Shown: piece after piece, positions 6,584 through 13,635 of the stretch
How the letters are laid out: every line of letters begins with the position of its first letter
Numbering within the stretch: position 1 is the first letter of the stretch
Source: an uncultured Flavobacteriaceae bacterium
GTDB taxonomy: Bacteria > Bacteroidota > Bacteroidia > Flavobacteriales > Flavobacteriaceae
Assembly: GCA_913043275.1 (NCBI GenBank)
Contig: CAJWLL010000015.1
Coordinates: 1 to 41,955 of the forward strand
Reading direction: 5' to 3'
Length of the DNA stretch: 41,955 nucleotides
Notes under the pieces: generated by a model
What the model was told of the DNA's origin: nothing
Databases searched by the model: none
The model's input: only the letters and a program-made list of their open reading frames with translations
Made by a program: the position numbers and the translations under genes

Positions 6584-7162
6584 ATGAAAAAACCATTTCA
6601 ATTACTGCTATCCATCAGTATGATCCTTTTGGCCTTTGGCTGGAGTCAAGCCCAAAGGCTAACGGCCAATACGGCCCAAAGCAATATCCGTTGGTACGGA
6701 GAAGAGCTCACCGGAAAAACCCACTTCGGTAACCTCAGCTTTAAAGAAGCTCAAATCGACCTTCAAGACGGTGTCATTACCGGTGGAAACTTTGTCGTAG
6801 ACATGACTTCCCTCACTGTCGAAGACCTCAGCGGGGGCGGGAAGGCAAAACTTGAAGGGCACCTCAGATCCGACGACTTTTTCAGTGTGGAAAAGAATCC
6901 GATGGCCACCCTTAAAATCAGCCAAAAATCTAAAGTCGATGGCAGCACACAAACCCTCTATGGCGAATTGACCATCAAGGGAATCAAACATCCCATCGAT
7001 TGTACCATAACCCTGGGAGACAACAAAACCGCAGTGGCCAAAATGACTTTTGATAGGTCCAAATACAATGTGCGTTTCCGTTCCGGTTCTTTTTTCGAAA
7101 ATCTCGGAGACAAACTCATTCTAGACGACATCAGGATGGAAGTAGGCTTACAGTGGAATTAG
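6584..7162 (+). CDS. YceI family periplasmic lipid-binding protein
   Basis: This secreted lipocalin-like protein has 192 residues. A signal peptide (about residues 1-23, ending SQAQ) precedes the YceI barrel, with typical elements NIRWYGEELTGKTHFGN, the LEGHLRSDDFFSVEKNPMA stretch, GELTIKGIKHPI and a C-terminal DIRMEVGL strand. The family binds isoprenoid or amide lipids in the periplasm. The exact ligand is unknown. It is probably co-transcribed with marR. From this gene onward the DNA becomes visibly richer in G+C than marR and the genes to its left. Confidence 0.92.
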   Translation: MKKPFQLLLSISMILLAFGWSQAQRLTANTAQSNIRWYGEELTGKTHFGNLSFKEAQIDLQDGVITGGNFVVDMTSLTVEDLSGGGKAKLEGHLRSDDFFSVEKNPMATLKISQKSKVDGSTQTLYGELTIKGIKHPIDCTITLGDNKTAVAKMTFDRSKYNVRFRSGSFFENLGDKLILDDIRMEVGLQWN

Positions 7163-7183: not shown

Positions 7184-7213
7184 TTGTTTTAAATTATTTT
7201 TCATATATATTTG
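7184..7213 (+). promoter_or_regulatory. trp operon promoter, Bacteroidota type
   Basis: TTG (7184-7186), 19 bases, then TATATTTG (7206-7213) is a full match to the consensus at favoured spacing. The expected start of transcription, four to six bases after the final G, falls at 7217-7219. That is on or next to the ATG of the leader peptide at 7218. Confidence 0.75.
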
Positions 7214-7217
7214 TCTT

Positions 7218-7265
7218 ATGAATTTTAAAAATAATAAGATAAGCTGGTGGAGCGAACTGATCTAA
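7218..7265 (+). CDS. trpL: trp leader peptide
   Basis: This 15-codon frame encodes MNFKNNKISWWSELI and has two adjacent Trp codons (TGG TGG, 7245-7250), a residue that is rare in random short frames. It sits between a strong promoter and a strong intrinsic terminator ahead of trpE, as in attenuation leaders. Ribosome stalling at the Trp codons when charged tRNA-Trp is scarce would be the sensor. It has no Shine-Dalgarno sequence and perhaps almost no 5' leader. The assignment rests on content and position, not on homology. Confidence 0.8.
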   Translation: MNFKNNKISWWSELI

Positions 7266-7324
7266 TCAATTCGTGATCCCGCAATATCCATACAAAAGGC
7301 TTGTCATCACGACAAGCCTTTTTT
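7252..7324 (+). terminator. trp attenuator: competing hairpins and intrinsic terminator
   Basis: The terminator is a perfect 12-bp stem (7294-7305 with 7311-7322, loop ATCAC) with a six-T run at 7319-7324, ending 11 bases before the trpE ATG. Upstream, 7252-7261 pairs with 7265-7274 (nine pairs including one G.U, one mismatch, 3-base loop), just after the Trp codons. The segment TCGTGAT (7271-7277) is perfectly complementary to ATCACGA (7306-7312), that is, the terminator loop plus two stem bases. A ribosome stalled at the Trp codons would mask the first arm, free 7271-7277 and disturb the terminator. The mechanism is inferred. The pairings were read directly. Confidence 0.75.
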
Positions 7325-7335
7325 AATTTTACACC

Positions 7336-8739
7336 ATGCATCCAAGGTTTAAACTACATTCTAAACATCAAAAAATCCTGGCAGACACCCTCACCCCGGT
7401 CAGCGTCTATCTCAAAATCAGGGATCAATTCCCCCACAGCCTTTTGCTGGAAAGCAGTGATTACGACGCTCGGACCAACAACTTCTCCTACATCTGTTGC
7501 AATCCCATTGCCACCCTCAGTATAGGCGGGGGAAAAATCAACTGTACTTTTCCCGACGGTAGCTATCAAGAGAAAAGTTTGATACCGGCAGACTCAGTGC
7601 CACAATTAGTTCAAGATTTTGCCCGGCAATTTGAATCAAAAAAATATCCTTTTAAGTTCATCACCAACGGACTTTTTGGATTCATCGCCCACGAGGCCGT
7701 GTCCCATTTTGAACATTTGACCCTTAGGACGGACAAAAGCAATTTGGAGCTGCCCGAAATCTACTATGCCGTTTATCAAAACATCATCGCCATCAGTCTT
7801 TTCAATCACCAGGCGCATTTGTTTTCTCACAGTTACGACGGCTCAGACAATCTTGATCAAATCAAAAAAATCCTTAAAAAAGACAATACTACCGCCTATC
7901 AATTCAAAAAACAGGGCGACAAAGCCTCCAACCTCACAGATGAGGAATTTACGACCATGGTCAACAAGGCCAAAGAGCACTGTTTTAGGGGAGATGTTTT
8001 TCAGCTGGTGCTTTCCCGCTGCTTTTCACAGGGCTTTTCGGGAGACGAATTCAATGTTTACCGCACATTGAGATCCGTCAACCCCTCGCCCTATCTGTTC
8101 TTTTTTGACTATGGGGATTTCAAGATCTTTGGCAGTTCGCCCGAGGCCCAACTGGTGGTGGAGCAGGGAAGAGCAGAGATTCACCCCATTGCGGGTACCT
8201 TTAGGCGAACGGGCAACGACGCTGAAGACCTTACCTCGGCCGAGCGACTGGCGGCTGATCCAAAAGAAAACAGCGAGCATGTGATGCTGGTCGATCTGGC
8301 CCGCAACGACCTCAGCCGCAACGGAACCGGGGTTGTTGTAGAAAAAAATAGGGAAATACAATTTTTCTCCCACGTCATTCACCTAGTTTCCAAAGTAACG
8401 GCCTTCCTCAAACCCAAGACCAAAACCTTTCAGGTGGTGGCCGACACCTTTCCGGCGGGAACCCTCAGTGGAGCACCCAAGCACATGGCCCTACAACTCA
8501 TTGACCGTTATGAAAACACTGCCCGAAACGCCTATGGAGGGGCATTGGGCTATATGGATTTTCAAGGCAACTTCAACCACTGCATCATCATCCGTTCCTT
8601 TATGAGCAAAAACCAACAGCTCCACTACCAAGCCGGGGCGGGCATCGTGTCAAAATCTGTACCGGAAAAAGAATTACAAGAAGTCTACAACAAACTCGGG
8701 GCCTTGGACAAAGCCCTTACACTGGCCGAAAAAATATAA
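7336..8739 (+). CDS. trpE: Anthranilate synthase component I
   Basis: This 467-residue enzyme converts chorismate to anthranilate using ammonia from TrpG, the first step of tryptophan synthesis. The N-terminal domain carries LLLES (residues 36-40), the motif linked to tryptophan feedback binding. The chorismate-binding domain has GSSPEAQL, IAGTFRRTG, LVDLARNDLSR, TFPAGTLSGAPK and GALGYMDFQGN. It is the first structural gene after the attenuator, and trpG starts two bases after its stop. The LLES motif and the partner trpG favour TrpE over PabB. Codons are notably G+C rich compared with flanking regions. Confidence 0.96.
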   Translation: MHPRFKLHSKHQKILADTLTPVSVYLKIRDQFPHSLLLESSDYDARTNNFSYICCNPIATLSIGGGKINCTFPDGSYQEKSLIPADSVPQLVQDFARQFESKKYPFKFITNGLFGFIAHEAVSHFEHLTLRTDKSNLELPEIYYAVYQNIIAISLFNHQAHLFSHSYDGSDNLDQIKKILKKDNTTAYQFKKQGDKASNLTDEEFTTMVNKAKEHCFRGDVFQLVLSRCFSQGFSGDEFNVYRTLRSVNPSPYLFFFDYGDFKIFGSSPEAQLVVEQGRAEIHPIAGTFRRTGNDAEDLTSAERLAADPKENSEHVMLVDLARNDLSRNGTGVVVEKNREIQFFSHVIHLVSKVTAFLKPKTKTFQVVADTFPAGTLSGAPKHMALQLIDRYENTARNAYGGALGYMDFQGNFNHCIIIRSFMSKNQQLHYQAGAGIVSKSVPEKELQEVYNKLGALDKALTLAEKI

Positions 8740-8741
8740 GC

Positions 8742-9305
8742 ATGAAAAAAATATTTGTCATTGATAATTACGACTCCTTCACCTACAATTTGGTACATTA
8801 TCTGGAGGAATTGGGCGCCGAGGTCACCGTGAGGCGGAACGATCAATTTGAGCTTTCCGAGCCCGAGGCTTATGAATACCTCTTGCTCTCCCCCGGACCC
8901 GGTATTCCAGACGAGGCGGGATTGCTCAAAGCCACCATCGAAAAATACGCCTCCACCAAAAAAATTCTAGGGGTGTGTTTGGGGCAACAGGCCATAGGAG
9001 AAGTTTTTGGCGCCAGTCTGGTCAATTTGGATACCGTTTTCCACGGCGTAGCCACACCGCTAAGGGTAGCCGAAGACGACCTCTTGTTTAAAGACTTACC
9101 TCAAAATTTTGAAGTGGGACGCTACCATTCCTGGGTTGTGCAAACCCCATTGCCTCAGGATTTGGTCGCCACCTCTTTTGATGACAACCAGCAATTGATG
9201 TCCCTCAGACACAAAAGTCTGCCCGTAAGAGCCGTACAATTCCACCCCGAATCCATCTTAACCCCCCATGGGAAAAAAATATTAGAAAACTGGATCAACA
9301 GCTAA
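8742..9305 (+). CDS. trpG: Anthranilate synthase component II (glutamine amidotransferase)
   Basis: This class I glutamine amidotransferase of 187 residues supplies ammonia to TrpE. The catalytic triad is visible: Cys79 in GVCLGQQ, then His168 and Glu170 in VQFHPES. The oxyanion and glutamine-binding elements LLSPGPGIPDEAG are also present, and the protein begins with the family start FVIDNYDSFTYN. The gene begins two bases after trpE and ends three bases before trpD. It may also serve aminodeoxychorismate synthase, as in other bacteria with one such subunit; that is not shown here. Confidence 0.95.
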   Translation: MKKIFVIDNYDSFTYNLVHYLEELGAEVTVRRNDQFELSEPEAYEYLLLSPGPGIPDEAGLLKATIEKYASTKKILGVCLGQQAIGEVFGASLVNLDTVFHGVATPLRVAEDDLLFKDLPQNFEVGRYHSWVVQTPLPQDLVATSFDDNQQLMSLRHKSLPVRAVQFHPESILTPHGKKILENWINS

Positions 9306-9308
9306 ACC

Positions 9309-10304
9309 ATGAAAGCCATAATCAACCGCCTGACCCAACACGAAACCCTGGACCGTAAGGAATCGGAAAGCATACTGACGGGCATTGCCCAGGGGCAGTA
9401 CAACCCCAGTCAGATCGCCTCTTTTTTGACCGTATTCATGATACGCAGCATCACCCTCGAGGAACTCGAAGGCTTTAGAAAAGCACTGCAAAAGCTTTGT
9501 TTGGCCATCGACTTGAGTGAATTCAACCCCATCGATTTGTGTGGAACGGGCGGAGACGGCAAGGACACCTTCAACATCTCAACCCTAGCTTCCTTTGTCA
9601 CTGCAGGAGCCGGGATTAAGGTCGCCAAACACGGTAATTACGGTGTTTCCTCCGGCTGTGGCTCCAGCAATGTTTTGGAGCATTTGGGAATTCGGTTTTC
9701 CAATGATGCCGATTTTCTCAAACGCTGCATCGACCAGGCGGGAATTTGCAACCTCCACGCCCCCCTTTTCCACCCGGCCATGAAAAACGTTGCCCCCATC
9801 CGCAGAGAATTGGGTGTAAAGACTTTTTTCAACATGCTCGGACCACTGGTCAACCCCGCCTTTCCCCAACACCAACTCACCGGGGTTTTCAATCTAGAAT
9901 TGGCAAGGCTGTACGGCTACCTCTTCCAAAAAACAGATCAAAATTTTACCATCTTATACGCCTTGGACGGCTATGATGAAATTTCACTGACCGGCCCTGC
10001 CAAGGCCATCAGAAACAGTGGAGAAAGCCTTATTGCTCCCCAAGATTTTGGTTTGGCACCACTGGACAAAAAACAAATCAGCGGTGGGGATACGGTTACC
10101 TCTTCTGCGGCCATTTTTACGGCCGTATTGGACGGAAAGGGCAGCCCGGCCCAAAACGATGTGGTCTGCGCCAATGCCGCCATGGCCATTGCCACTGCTA
10201 CCGACTGCACCCCGCTGGAAGGATTTGAAAAAGCAAAAGATGCCCTCTTGTCGGGACAGGCCGACAAAGCCTTTAAAACCGTTCAAAAACTCAGTGCTGC
10301 ATGA
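9309..10304 (+). CDS. trpD: Anthranilate phosphoribosyltransferase
   Basis: This 331-residue enzyme transfers phosphoribose from PRPP to anthranilate. The signature DLCGTGGDGKDTFNIST covers the PRPP-binding glycine-rich loop (GTGGDG, 79-84), and KHGN (107-110) follows. The helical N-terminal part and the alpha/beta C-terminal part have normal proportions. Its end overlaps the trpC start by four bases (ATGA), suggesting translational coupling. A sample line within this gene (9541-9600) is 33/60 G+C, well above most of the window. Confidence 0.96.
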   Translation: MKAIINRLTQHETLDRKESESILTGIAQGQYNPSQIASFLTVFMIRSITLEELEGFRKALQKLCLAIDLSEFNPIDLCGTGGDGKDTFNISTLASFVTAGAGIKVAKHGNYGVSSGCGSSNVLEHLGIRFSNDADFLKRCIDQAGICNLHAPLFHPAMKNVAPIRRELGVKTFFNMLGPLVNPAFPQHQLTGVFNLELARLYGYLFQKTDQNFTILYALDGYDEISLTGPAKAIRNSGESLIAPQDFGLAPLDKKQISGGDTVTSSAAIFTAVLDGKGSPAQNDVVCANAAMAIATATDCTPLEGFEKAKDALLSGQADKAFKTVQKLSAA

Positions 10305-11086
10305 CCATCTTAGACCGCATCATCATCGATAAAATCAAGGAGGTCGAGCTGCGAAAAAAAGCGTTTCCTCGGGCCTATTGGGAACAGTCACCCTTGTTCG
10401 AGCGGGAGGGTTTTTCCTTGTCCCAACGTTTGCAGGACAGCCCCTCGGGCATCATCGCCGAGCACAAGCGGCGTTCTCCTTCCCGGAACAACATCAACAG
10501 CAGTTTGTCCGTACATCAGGTCGCCCAAGGCTATGAAAAAGCGGGGGTCTGTGGGATGTCGGTACTGACCGATCAAAAATATTTTGGGGGCAGTCTGGAA
10601 GATTTGACCGCTGCCCGGGCAGTGTGCCAACTTCCGCTTTTGAGAAAAGAATTCATCATCGATCCCTATCAACTGTTCGAGGCCAAGGCCCACGGTGCCG
10701 ATGTGATCTTGTTGATCGCTGCCGTTATGGATCGTGAACAGATCAAGCAACTCTCGGGAACGGCACAAAGTTTGGGCTTGGAGGTGTTGTTGGAAGTCCA
10801 CACCCAAGGTGAACTTCAAAAAGCCCTAATGCCCACTTTAAATATGCTGGGGGTAAACAACCGCAACCTCAAAACCTTTGAAGTTAGTTTGGACACAAGC
10901 AAGGCCTTGGCCGAGCATATCCCCGACGATTTTGTAAAAGTATCCGAAAGTGGCATCAGTTCAACTACGGCCATTAAGTCTCTTCAGTCCTATGGATATC
11001 GCGGCTTTTTGATCGGTGAAAACTTTATGAAAACTGAATCTCCCGGCCTTTCTGCCGAGGATTTCATTAATGCCCTGACCCAGTGA
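10301..11086 (+). CDS. trpC: Indole-3-glycerol phosphate synthase
   Basis: This 261-residue TIM-barrel enzyme closes the indole ring of CdRP. Catalytic residues are visible in order: Glu54 and Lys56 in IIAEHKRRSPS, Lys116 in LLRKEF, Glu in LLEVH, Asn in GVNNRNL and the phosphate-binding end VSESGIS. It is a stand-alone TrpC, not fused to TrpF. It overlaps trpD by four bases (ATGA) and trpF by four bases (GTGA). Confidence 0.95.
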   Translation: MTILDRIIIDKIKEVELRKKAFPRAYWEQSPLFEREGFSLSQRLQDSPSGIIAEHKRRSPSRNNINSSLSVHQVAQGYEKAGVCGMSVLTDQKYFGGSLEDLTAARAVCQLPLLRKEFIIDPYQLFEAKAHGADVILLIAAVMDREQIKQLSGTAQSLGLEVLLEVHTQGELQKALMPTLNMLGVNNRNLKTFEVSLDTSKALAEHIPDDFVKVSESGISSTTAIKSLQSYGYRGFLIGENFMKTESPGLSAEDFINALTQ

Positions 11087-11691
11087 AACTAAAAGTTTGC
11101 GGTATGCGTTCGCTTGAAAACATTGCTTTATTATCGGATTTGGCACCTGACTATATGGGCTTTATTTTTTGGCAACACTCTAAGAGGTTTATCTCTGCAT
11201 CCACTCCCGATTTACATCCCTCCATCAAAAAAACAGGCGTCTTTGTCGATGCCGATTTGACCTATATCTTGGACATTGCAAAACAACACCAACTTCAGGC
11301 CCTTCAACTACACGGTAGTGAAAGCCCTGATTTTTGTCAAAAAATGCAAACCACAGGGCTGGAAATCATCAAAGCCTTTGCAGTAGATTCTGCTTTTGAT
11401 TTTTCGCTTTTGGAGGCCTACGAATCTGTCTGCGATTATTTTTTGTTCGACAGTAAAGGCGAATTGCCCGGTGGTAACAGCAAGCGTTTTGATTGGTCGG
11501 TATTAAAAGAATATCCCTTGGAAAAACCTTTCTTTTTGAGCGGCGGAATCGGTCCAGGAGATCAAGGCGCTATCGCATCGATAATTAGGTTAAATTTGCC
11601 TCTTTATGCAATAGACATCAACAGCAAATTTGAAAGGGAACCAGGGATAAAAGACATTGAAATCATAAAGCAATTTAAAGCATCACTATAA
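11083..11691 (+). CDS. trpF: Phosphoribosylanthranilate isomerase
   Basis: This 202-residue TIM barrel performs the Amadori rearrangement of PRA to CdRP. The catalytic Cys is in KVCGMRS at the N-terminus. LQLHGSES, the GGNSKRFDW segment, LSGGIGPGD and the phosphate-binding end AIDINSKFEREPGIKD follow. It starts with GTG inside the trpC stop (GTGA), and trpB follows after one base. Base composition drops towards the rest of the genome from here on. Confidence 0.94.
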   Translation: MKLKVCGMRSLENIALLSDLAPDYMGFIFWQHSKRFISASTPDLHPSIKKTGVFVDADLTYILDIAKQHQLQALQLHGSESPDFCQKMQTTGLEIIKAFAVDSAFDFSLLEAYESVCDYFLFDSKGELPGGNSKRFDWSVLKEYPLEKPFFLSGGIGPGDQGAIASIIRLNLPLYAIDINSKFEREPGIKDIEIIKQFKASL

Positions 11692-11692
11692 A

Positions 11693-12874
11693 ATGAAATA
11701 TCAGGTAGATGAAAAGGGATTTTACGGTGATTTCGGAGGAGCATATATCCCCGAGATGCTCTACCCCAATGTAGAAGAATTGAGACAAAACTACATTCAG
11801 ATCAGTGAATCGGAGTCTTTTCAAAAAGAATTTAAGTCGCTGCTCAGTGACTATGTAGGTCGTCCGACTCCCCTTTATTTTGCGGAGCGTTTATCTAAAA
11901 AATACAACACCAAGATTTACCTCAAAAGGGAAGATTTGTGTCACACGGGTGCCCACAAGGTCAACAACACCATTGGGCAAATTTTAATGGCTCAACGCTT
12001 GGGTAAAAACCGCATCATAGCAGAAACTGGAGCGGGACAGCACGGGGTGGCGACTGCCACTGTTTGTGCTTTAATGGGGATAGAATGTATCATTTATATG
12101 GGTACTTTGGACATCCAACGTCAAGCCCCCAATGTGGCCCGAATGAAGATGCTGGGTGCAAAGGTCAGGGCAGCCGAATCGGGGAGTAAAACTCTTAAAG
12201 ACGCAACCAATGAAGCTATACGCGACTGGATCAACAATCCAGTAGACACCCACTACATCATTGGATCAGTTGTGGGGCCTCATCCCTACCCCGACATGGT
12301 TGCCCGTTTTCAATCAGTAATCAGTGCCGAGACCCAAGCCCAATTGTTGAAAAAAGAGAATCGGGATTATCCCGATCACATAATTGCTTGTGTTGGAGGT
12401 GGCAGTAATGCTGCAGGTCTTTATTATCACTTTTTGGAAAACCCACGGGTTAACATCATTGCGGTGGAGGCAGCTGGAAAAGGCATCGACTCCGGTAAAA
12501 GTGCTGCTACATCGGCCTTGGGAAAAGAAGGCATCATCCACGGAAGTAAAACTCTGTTGATGCAAACGCCCGACGGACAAATTACAGAGCCCTATTCCAT
12601 CTCTGCCGGGCTAGACTATCCGGGGGTTGGGCCCATGCATGCCCACCTGTTCCGCAGTCAAAGGGCCGAATTCATTTCCATCCCAGATAAGGAGGCCATG
12701 GACTGGGGATTGACCCTCTCTCAAATGGAAGGCATCATCCCTGCCATTGAGACCGCCCATGCTTTTGCCGTATTGGATGTAAGAAAATTCTCCCGGGAAG
12801 AAGTCATCGTTTTTAACTGTTCCGGAAGAGGAGACAAAGATTTAGAAACCTATATCGACCATTTTAAATTGTAA
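11693..12874 (+). CDS. trpB: Tryptophan synthase beta chain
   Basis: This 393-residue PLP enzyme condenses indole with serine. The cofactor lysine is Lys89 in HTGAHKVNN. The phosphate-binding loop is GGGSNAAG, and GAGQHGVATAT and the C-terminal NCSGRGDKD are also present. The length is normal for TrpB1, the form that pairs with TrpA. Its stop shares a base with the trpA start (TAATG), consistent with coupled translation of the alpha2-beta2 complex. Confidence 0.97.
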   Translation: MKYQVDEKGFYGDFGGAYIPEMLYPNVEELRQNYIQISESESFQKEFKSLLSDYVGRPTPLYFAERLSKKYNTKIYLKREDLCHTGAHKVNNTIGQILMAQRLGKNRIIAETGAGQHGVATATVCALMGIECIIYMGTLDIQRQAPNVARMKMLGAKVRAAESGSKTLKDATNEAIRDWINNPVDTHYIIGSVVGPHPYPDMVARFQSVISAETQAQLLKKENRDYPDHIIACVGGGSNAAGLYYHFLENPRVNIIAVEAAGKGIDSGKSAATSALGKEGIIHGSKTLLMQTPDGQITEPYSISAGLDYPGVGPMHAHLFRSQRAEFISIPDKEAMDWGLTLSQMEGIIPAIETAHAFAVLDVRKFSREEVIVFNCSGRGDKDLETYIDHFKL

Positions 12875-13635
12875 TGAACCGCATAGACGAAACCTTCCAA
12901 AAAAAGAAAAAACTACTTTCCATTTATTTCTCAGCCGGACACCCAGAATTGGAGGACACTTTTCCCATACTTTGTGCACTACAAGACAGTGGGGTGGACA
13001 TGGTGGAAATCGGCTTACCCTTTAGCGATCCCTTGGCGGACGGCCCGACGATTCAAAAAAGTTCCACCCGTGCCCTCCTAAATGGCATGACCACCGAAAA
13101 ACTATTTGATCAGCTCCAAAACATAAGGGATAGCATCCATATTCCATTAGTATTGATGGGCTACTTCAACCCTATTATGCAGTTCGGTATTAAGCGGTTT
13201 TGCGAAAAATGTCTAAGCATCGGTATTGATGGTTTAATAATCCCCGACCTGCCCGTAGATATTTACCATCAAAAATATAAACCACTTTTTGACCAGTACA
13301 ATTTGTACAATATGTTTTTGATCACTCCCCAAACTCCGGAGGAAAGGATTCGCTATATTGACAGTTTGTCCAGTGGCTTTATCTATATGGTCAGTAGCGC
13401 CAGTGTCACCGGAGTTCAAAATACTTTTGGGAATACACAAGAAGACTATTTTAAGCGCATTGCCCAGATGAAACTAAATACGCCACAAGTGGTCGGTTTT
13501 GGAATTAGTAATGCCGAAACTTATCGTGCAGCCACCCGTTTCAGTAGCGGTGCTATTATCGGGTCAGCATTCATCCAATTTATAGAAAAGAAAGGTGTCT
13601 CTGCCATTCCAGATTTTATAAAAAGTATTCGCTAA
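12874..13635 (+). CDS. trpA: Tryptophan synthase alpha chain
   Basis: This 253-residue TIM barrel cleaves indole-3-glycerol phosphate to indole, which is channelled to TrpB. The catalytic residues are Glu46 in MVEIGLPFSDP and Asp56 in LADGPTIQ. GLIIPDLPV, MVSSASVTG and VGFGIS are the other family motifs. It is the last gene of the trp operon. I see no strong intrinsic terminator in the 193 bases that follow, only weak AT-rich pairings. Confidence 0.95.
   Translation: MNRIDETFQKKKKLLSIYFSAGHPELEDTFPILCALQDSGVDMVEIGLPFSDPLADGPTIQKSSTRALLNGMTTEKLFDQLQNIRDSIHIPLVLMGYFNPIMQFGIKRFCEKCLSIGIDGLIIPDLPVDIYHQKYKPLFDQYNLYNMFLITPQTPEERIRYIDSLSSGFIYMVSSASVTGVQNTFGNTQEDYFKRIAQMKLNTPQVVGFGISNAETYRAATRFSSGAIIGSAFIQFIEKKGVSAIPDFIKSIR

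Follow-up and report, generated by a model that had tools for sequence, protein, structure and literature searches.

In the trp attenuator of E. coli (trpL), a leader peptide carrying tandem Trp codons is followed by a hairpin, in which the antiterminator is hidden, and by a terminator, and the position of the ribosome decides the outcome. In the Bacteroidetes, Rfam describes family RF01692 (Bacteroid-trp) as a tryptophan peptide leader; the accessible text of Weinberg et al. 2010 (PMC2864571) lists the motif in Table 1 and names it once in the body of the paper. In excerpts of the work on Sinorhizobium meliloti trpLE(G), the 5' end of the attenuator RNA is the trpL ATG, giving a small leaderless mRNA, and the leader peptide and the attenuator RNA (rnTrpL) also act in trans (PMC7298713). 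For Flavobacterium psychrophilum, the excerpted transcriptome report gives strong clues of leader-peptide attenuation ahead of amino-acid operons, the pheA and hisG 5' elements being reported from other genera (PMC9723704). The fhsA motif is presented, in the passage concerned, as a weak riboswitch candidate with 52 representatives (PMC11109978).

The window, i.e. the whole stretch of 41,955 nucleotides analyzed here, belongs to an uncultured Flavobacteriaceae bacterium and contains a trp operon preceded by the following elements.

7184-7213, + strand: promoter, with a -33 TTG at 7184-7186, a spacer of 19 nt and a -7 box TATATTTG at 7206-7213 (from the sequence)
7218-7265, + strand: leader peptide ORF, MNFKNNKISWWSELI-stop, 15 codons (from the sequence)
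7245-7250, + strand: tandem Trp codons, the presumed stall site (from the sequence; kept among relatives)
7252-7274, + strand: hairpin P1, predicted to sequester the antiterminator strand (predicted fold, -6.0 kcal/mol)
7271-7277, + strand: antiterminator strand (AT), UCGUGAU, complement of the terminator loop and 3' shoulder
7294-7324, + strand: intrinsic terminator, 12 pairs (7294-7305/7311-7322) and U6 at 7319-7324, -16.5 kcal/mol
7306-7312, + strand: target of AT, AUCACGA, i.e. the terminator loop and two bases of the 3' arm
7336-8739, + strand: trpE, the first gene of trpEGDCFBA (ORF)
7336-13635, + strand: presumably regulated operon, trpE, trpG, trpD, trpC, trpF, trpB and trpA (ORFs, NCBIfam)

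The leader, the tandem Trp codons, the hairpin, AT and the terminator had been located from the letters alone in a first-pass annotation, and all of them agree with it base for base. Curated NCBIfam cut-offs are exceeded by the trpG, D, C, B and A products. TrpE, at 402.6 of 517.7 bits, and TrpF fall below theirs and were named by the best match and position. The gene upstream of the leader ends at 7162 and is presumably YceI-like.

The leader ATG is found 4 nt past the TAnnTTTG box. The same gap occurs in 17 of 18 tabulated members of the genus (3 nt in the remaining one), and in 35 of 74 family representatives it measures 3–5 nt (6 to 22 nt in the others). As the box is placed at -12 to -5 in the excerpted F. 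psychrophilum transcriptome (PMC9723704), a gap of 4 nt makes the first base of the leader ATG (7218) the expected transcription start. The positions of box and ATG thus suggest a leaderless mRNA, whose 5' end would coincide with the leader AUG or nearly so; in F. psychrophilum, leaderless mRNAs comprise only 5.5% according to the same excerpts (PMC9723704).

The terminator loop is ATCAC (7306-7310), and the 3' arm ends within a run of six T (7319-7324). In the fold of 7251-7277 the outer pair of P1 joins 7252 with 7274 (-6.0 kcal/mol). All seven bases of AT (7271-7277) are complementary to AUCACGA at 7306-7312, so the ability of this segment to pair either with the arm of P1 or with the terminator, as claimed previously, is seen both in the fold and in the complementarity. 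At equilibrium (fold of 7266-7329) the terminator amounts to -18.4 kcal/mol versus -10.9 kcal/mol for AT. The nascent RNA was also folded at increasing lengths with the ribosome-covered part omitted, assuming cover edges at 7259, 7262 and 7277. With the ribosome on the Trp codons, AT makes 5–7 pairs with the loop at RNA ends 7310-7316; with the ribosome at the leader stop it makes none, and with no ribosome P1 forms and AT is held. From an RNA end of 7318 onwards the terminator is formed in all ribosome states. Since the terminator is the stronger structure at equilibrium and is formed from 7318, capture by AT must be kinetic, and its seven pairs may not be enough for it.

The trp operon is probably under the control of a ribosome-controlled transcription attenuator that would operate through this AT/loop switch. 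RNA polymerase would start at or near the leader AUG, with a ribosome trailing it across the short ORF that contains the Trp codons. A shortage of charged tRNA-Trp would stall this ribosome at 7245-7250, where it would cover the 5' arm of P1, thus leaving AT free to grab the emerging loop and 3' shoulder (7306-7312) before the remaining 3' arm closes the hairpin, and the polymerase would continue into trpE. With ample Trp, the ribosome would reach the stop and cover AT, or P1 would re-form after its release, and in both cases the terminator would close. If the leader is not translated at all, P1 would form and the operon would likewise be off.

The upstream regions of trpE in Flavobacteriaceae were taken from TrpE searches (224 stretches, 202 of them distinct after 22 duplicates were dropped); they come from the highest-scoring TrpE matches, so the sample leans toward close orthologues. 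A leader with Trp codons and, behind it, a terminator precede trpE in 200 of the 202 distinct stretches. The two misses are L009, truncated at the end of its contig, and L014, with motifs displaced to -494, -465 and -419. In L014 (genome G257) the attenuator motifs are some 400 bases away from trpE, and the intervening stretch includes what looks, by eye, like part of another gene. The Trp codons, whose conservation in relatives the first-pass annotation had put forward as a check, are kept as two or three adjacent codons in 196 of the 200 leaders (three in 155, two in 41), and four leaders (L033, L038, L099 and L181) have one. AT begins 26–28 nt past the first Trp codon in 185 of 200, and all six core pairs between AT and the loop-3' shoulder are present in 183, the other 17 being without one or two. 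It could be argued that the element is a plain terminator, or a control of read-through with no amino-acid sensing, in which the Trp codons are incidental. The tandem Trp codons of those 196 leaders and the near-constant distance from Trp codon to AT make this extremely improbable, as does the substitution of Lys for the Trp codons where the element precedes lysC (see below). The comparison with relatives therefore supports the reading of the locus as a probable trp attenuator.

For the ribosome-controlled attenuator, the place of the leader stop bears on how AT could be covered. The stop codon UGA is within AT (UCG UGA) in 129 of 200 leaders, and the window has it 8 nt upstream of AT. In 8 of 200 it is 11–14 nt upstream, which puts a terminating ribosome too far away to cover AT, and in 2 of 200 it is 14 or 70 nt downstream. 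In a close relative, L034 (G306), the leader ORF, for want of a stop, continues across the terminator as far as base 8 of trpE; this loss might couple the translation of the leader and trpE, or might be an error of the metagenome-assembled genome.

A profile model built from 75 family sequences matches 184 of 199 family genomes at E 0.01, the 199 including the genomes that supplied its training sequences. Of 100 genomes, 60 have a single match each to a strict AT-to-loop pattern, and the reversed control gives 0. A weak match of the model on the minus strand of the window (7291-7376) is taken for the symmetric terminator read in reverse; another weak match is at G000:C25:17595-17695.

The longest complement of the loop region within the part of the leader past the Trp codons, taken over the 200 trpE upstreams, has a mean length of 6.72 nt, versus 4.35 nt in dinucleotide shuffles, and in 199 of 200 it begins 23–30 nt past the first Trp codon. 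For the 5' arm of the terminator, the corresponding means in the same upstreams are 5.41 and 5.13 nt. The 76 representatives give a loop complement of 6.74 versus 4.42 nt shuffled, with 33 of them at nominal p ≤ 0.05. Loops exchanged between species still find a complement of 6.64 nt (6.72 nt for the native ones), because both partners are nearly invariant. The best contiguous helix was used for the comparison of leader and terminator, as plain RNAduplex energies spread across the whole hairpin; this helix reaches nominal p ≤ 0.05 in 51 of 76 representatives.

If the geometry were enteric, the true antiterminator would occupy the 5' arm of the terminator, and the loop pairing would be incidental or secondary. 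Such a geometry is unlikely for the family. Past the Trp codons, the 5'-arm complement of the representatives is 4.93 nt versus 5.04 nt shuffled, with 0 of 76 at p 0.05, and the best helix lies on the loop and 3' arm, excluding the 5' arm, in 64 of 76. The spacer behind AT binds the 5' arm with a mean of -3.28 kcal/mol versus -3.37 kcal/mol when shuffled (median p 0.515, 5 of 76 at p ≤ 0.05). What can be said for the enteric geometry is that RNAduplex of the window gives an inner helix, GCAA/UUGU, next to the loop helix, and that the 5' arm or 5' shoulder is targeted by many class-level leaders and (by eye) by the hisG leaders of the family. A 5'-arm antiterminator was rejected for the family, its pairing being at chance, and the unusual antiterminator directed at the loop, which the first-pass annotation had pointed out, holds.

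The hairpin P1 has a mean energy of -5.1 kcal/mol in 75 representatives (one of the 76 is not in this test), compared with -2.7 kcal/mol for shuffles of the spacer, and its stem sequences differ. Taken singly, it reaches p ≤ 0.05 in 28 of 75 (p 0.07 for the window alone), and the Kolmogorov–Smirnov (KS) p of the whole set is 3e-27, uncorrected for relatedness. The RF01692 model contains a longer hairpin, formed by the Trp-codon region and the spacer behind AT, and it may be asked if this is the real switch and the AT/loop match a by-product. We consider this quite unlikely. The long hairpin is above chance in the leaders with three Trp codons (-11.5 versus -8.3 kcal/mol, KS p 6e-13, 15 of 50 at p ≤ 0.05), but those with two, the kind found in the window, are at chance (median p 0.52, 3 of 23 at p ≤ 0.05), whereas the AT/loop pairing is present in both; the group means refer to 50 three-Trp and 23 two-Trp representatives, the window included and one-Trp rows excluded. 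Two of the three two-Trp leaders at p ≤ 0.05 are from the genus of the window. As the long hairpin, where present, encloses AT, it fits a second layer of sequestration and not an antiterminator. As a family-wide feature it was rejected, being supported in the three-Trp leaders only.

The AT/loop pairing itself is kept with little variation. The six core pairs are formed in 74, 76, 76, 75, 75 and 71 of the 76 representatives, and the core is so nearly invariant that covariation support is limited to a few positions. The variable seventh pair is formed in 40 of 72 sequences versus 39.5% after permutation, a value that 0 of 1000 permutations reach (uncorrected for relatedness); the eighth shows no covariation (6 of 30 paired, reached by 954 of 1000 permutations). 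In the alignment of 75 sequences (A1, from which L181 of the 76 is omitted), the 7-pair AT/loop helix is 92.3% paired, with a covariation score of 0.080 versus 0.048 shuffled and 16 cells changed on both sides versus 7.6. Compensated core pairs are found in L186 (GUCGUAAG/CUUACGAC) and L352 (UCGUAAUC/GAUUACGA). The terminator shows double changes in 5 of its 12 pairs, with 20 both-side cells versus 4.2 shuffled in the same 75 sequences. Compensatory changes in the three stems, which the first-pass annotation had expected of a true attenuator, are therefore found in part: the terminator, the re-made P1 and the seventh AT/loop pair provide them, and the AT/loop core shows little covariation.

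Judged from the aligned sequences, a loop so nearly invariant is odd for a terminator. It might be kept for a reader in trans, a protein or another RNA, with the complement in cis as a decoy or a second function, in the manner of the trans action of Sinorhizobium rnTrpL. The conservation of the terminator and AT sequences, which exceeds the needs of pairing, would agree with such a reader, and so would the intact leader and terminator in genome G055, which are found without a trp gene and beside opposite-strand genes. Changed loops, on the other hand, are often accompanied by a changed AT in cis, and the loop and AT differ together across families, which a common reader would not require; we thus regard a trans reader as very unlikely.

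Outside the family, 47 of 149 genomes of the class sample have a TrpE match at E 1e-60, and 43 upstreams were examined. A leader and terminator were found by script in 37 of the 43 (misses: L248, L250, L260, L274, L276 and L277), the 37 including L272, which belongs to the family of the window, and L249, L252 and L278, each with a single Trp codon and possibly spurious. The best leader-terminator helix begins 20–29 nt past the first Trp codon in 30 of 37 versus 7.0 expected, with differing sequences. Nominal p 0.05 is reached by only 17 of 37, and in 13 of these 17 the helix includes at least 2 loop bases. The target is the 5' arm in L261 and L271, the 5' shoulder with the loop in L242, L270 and L275, the loop with both shoulders in L254, the loop with the 3' shoulder in L244, L267 and L280, and the 3' arm alone in L273.

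A His leader was found by script in 26 of 30 hisG loci of the family (L294-L323; misses L294, L295, L310 and L319), and in none of 19 further hisG loci of the genus of the window (L324-L342). Judged by eye, the CUCAAGCG of these His leaders would pair with the terminator's 5' arm and one loop base. The leaders of L296-L323 have runs of His codons, with the antiterminator (by eye) about 25 nt past the first one. Loop attack by every flavobacterial attenuator was rejected, the hisG leaders targeting the 5' arm by eye.

There is an even chance that the attenuator of Bacteroidia is a module, made of a ruler of ~20–29 nt from the sensing codons to AT and a strand that captures the loop before closure, in which the target has drifted and the codons can be swapped. 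Under such a module, contact and distance would outweigh sequence, and for this reason the target could drift among the 5' arm, 5' shoulder, loop and 3' shoulder, and the codons could be exchanged.

Lys codons replace the Trp codons in an element found before lysC in three genomes: G022 (L343), G089 (L344) and G251 (L377/L406). The model E-values of these copies are 9.7e-9, 3.5e-8 and 1.4e-6. In G022 and G089 the single strict AT-to-loop match precedes the aspartokinase gene and not trpE, and the leaders, KKDKKVHLRRTS and KQKDKKIYLRRMS, have zero Trp codons. The leader in G251 is FKKGKKQHIP, and its AT has a different sequence that still pairs with the loop by eye. The next gene is lysA in G022 and an opposite-strand gene in G251. 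No in-frame ATG was seen in the Lys leaders, for which GTG or TTG starts are possible, and 27 of the 30 lysC upstreams examined lack the element. By its codons, the element is possibly a lysine leader-peptide attenuator. Titles and abstracts in the open-access literature gave no report of one, which is weak evidence of novelty.

Two further copies are found away from trpE. G055 has an orphan trp leader, MKKLQLNMWWWKHEIFIS, with an intact terminator and no trp gene behind it (L347, ~1613-1500, minus strand); trpB was not found in this genome, which is 86% complete, and G275 of the same genus has both trpB and the element. L358 (G167) is a diverged copy with a terminator of the CGACGGGC type, and the gene behind it resembles the TrpB2 type of tryptophan synthase beta.

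The switch proposed here gives a testable mechanism to the Bacteroid-trp RNA, which is known but mechanistically undescribed in the literature examined, and it suggests that antitermination is possible without an attack on the 5' arm of the terminator. The natural variants (shifted targets, compensated loops, Lys for Trp) offer a way to learn how little contact with the loop blocks termination, and if the Lys version works, a codon swap would re-aim one attenuator at another amino acid.

In respect to the described systems, no Rfam family matches the leader at the curated cut-offs, the sole match in the window being a tRNA at 1-50, and Rfam Trp_leader has no match among the window scans at the curated or the loose threshold. 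At the loose threshold RF01692 matches 7199-7305 with 33.3 bits (E 0.015–0.022), under its cut-off of 49. This is the top Rfam score of the window in bits; by E-value, a reverse-strand match of RF02503 (22.5 of 40 bits) outranks it. The RF01692 cut-off is passed by 7 of 12 related loci tested. Both RF01692 and the window have a Trp-codon leader peptide ahead of trp genes in Bacteroidetes, and they differ in the long hairpin of the model, unsupported in the two-Trp group of the window. Since the model does not extend past the 5' arm of the terminator, it contains neither the loop nor the AT/loop pairing. The element in the window is probably a homologue or relative of RF01692 that falls below the cut-off, and it is not filed as a member.

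With the enteric trp attenuator the window shares the tandem-Trp leader ORF before the first trp gene, the predicted terminator before trpE and the predicted P1, a mutually exclusive hairpin that would hide the antiterminator strand, and presumably also the control by ribosome position. It differs in the target of AT, which is the loop and 3' shoulder and not the 5' arm, and in the probable leaderless start. The proposed ribosome-dependent attenuation with a leaderless leader mRNA is, in the excerpts concerned, a likeness to S. meliloti trpLE(G), an alphaproteobacterial system. The attenuators of F. psychrophilum are from the same family as the window, and the excerpted attenuation section mentions neither the trp operon nor a loop-pairing antiterminator (PMC9723704). 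The fhsA motif is similar in the pairing between a terminator stem-loop and a preceding hairpin, proposed to block the terminator and called potential by its authors, and differs in that a leader peptide is unmentioned in the passage (PMC11109978). As far as the open-access texts searched show, an antiterminator directed at the loop and 3' shoulder, its shift along the hairpin among Bacteroidia, with the spacing to the Trp codons staying nearly constant, and the version with Lys codons before lysC in three relatives are new.
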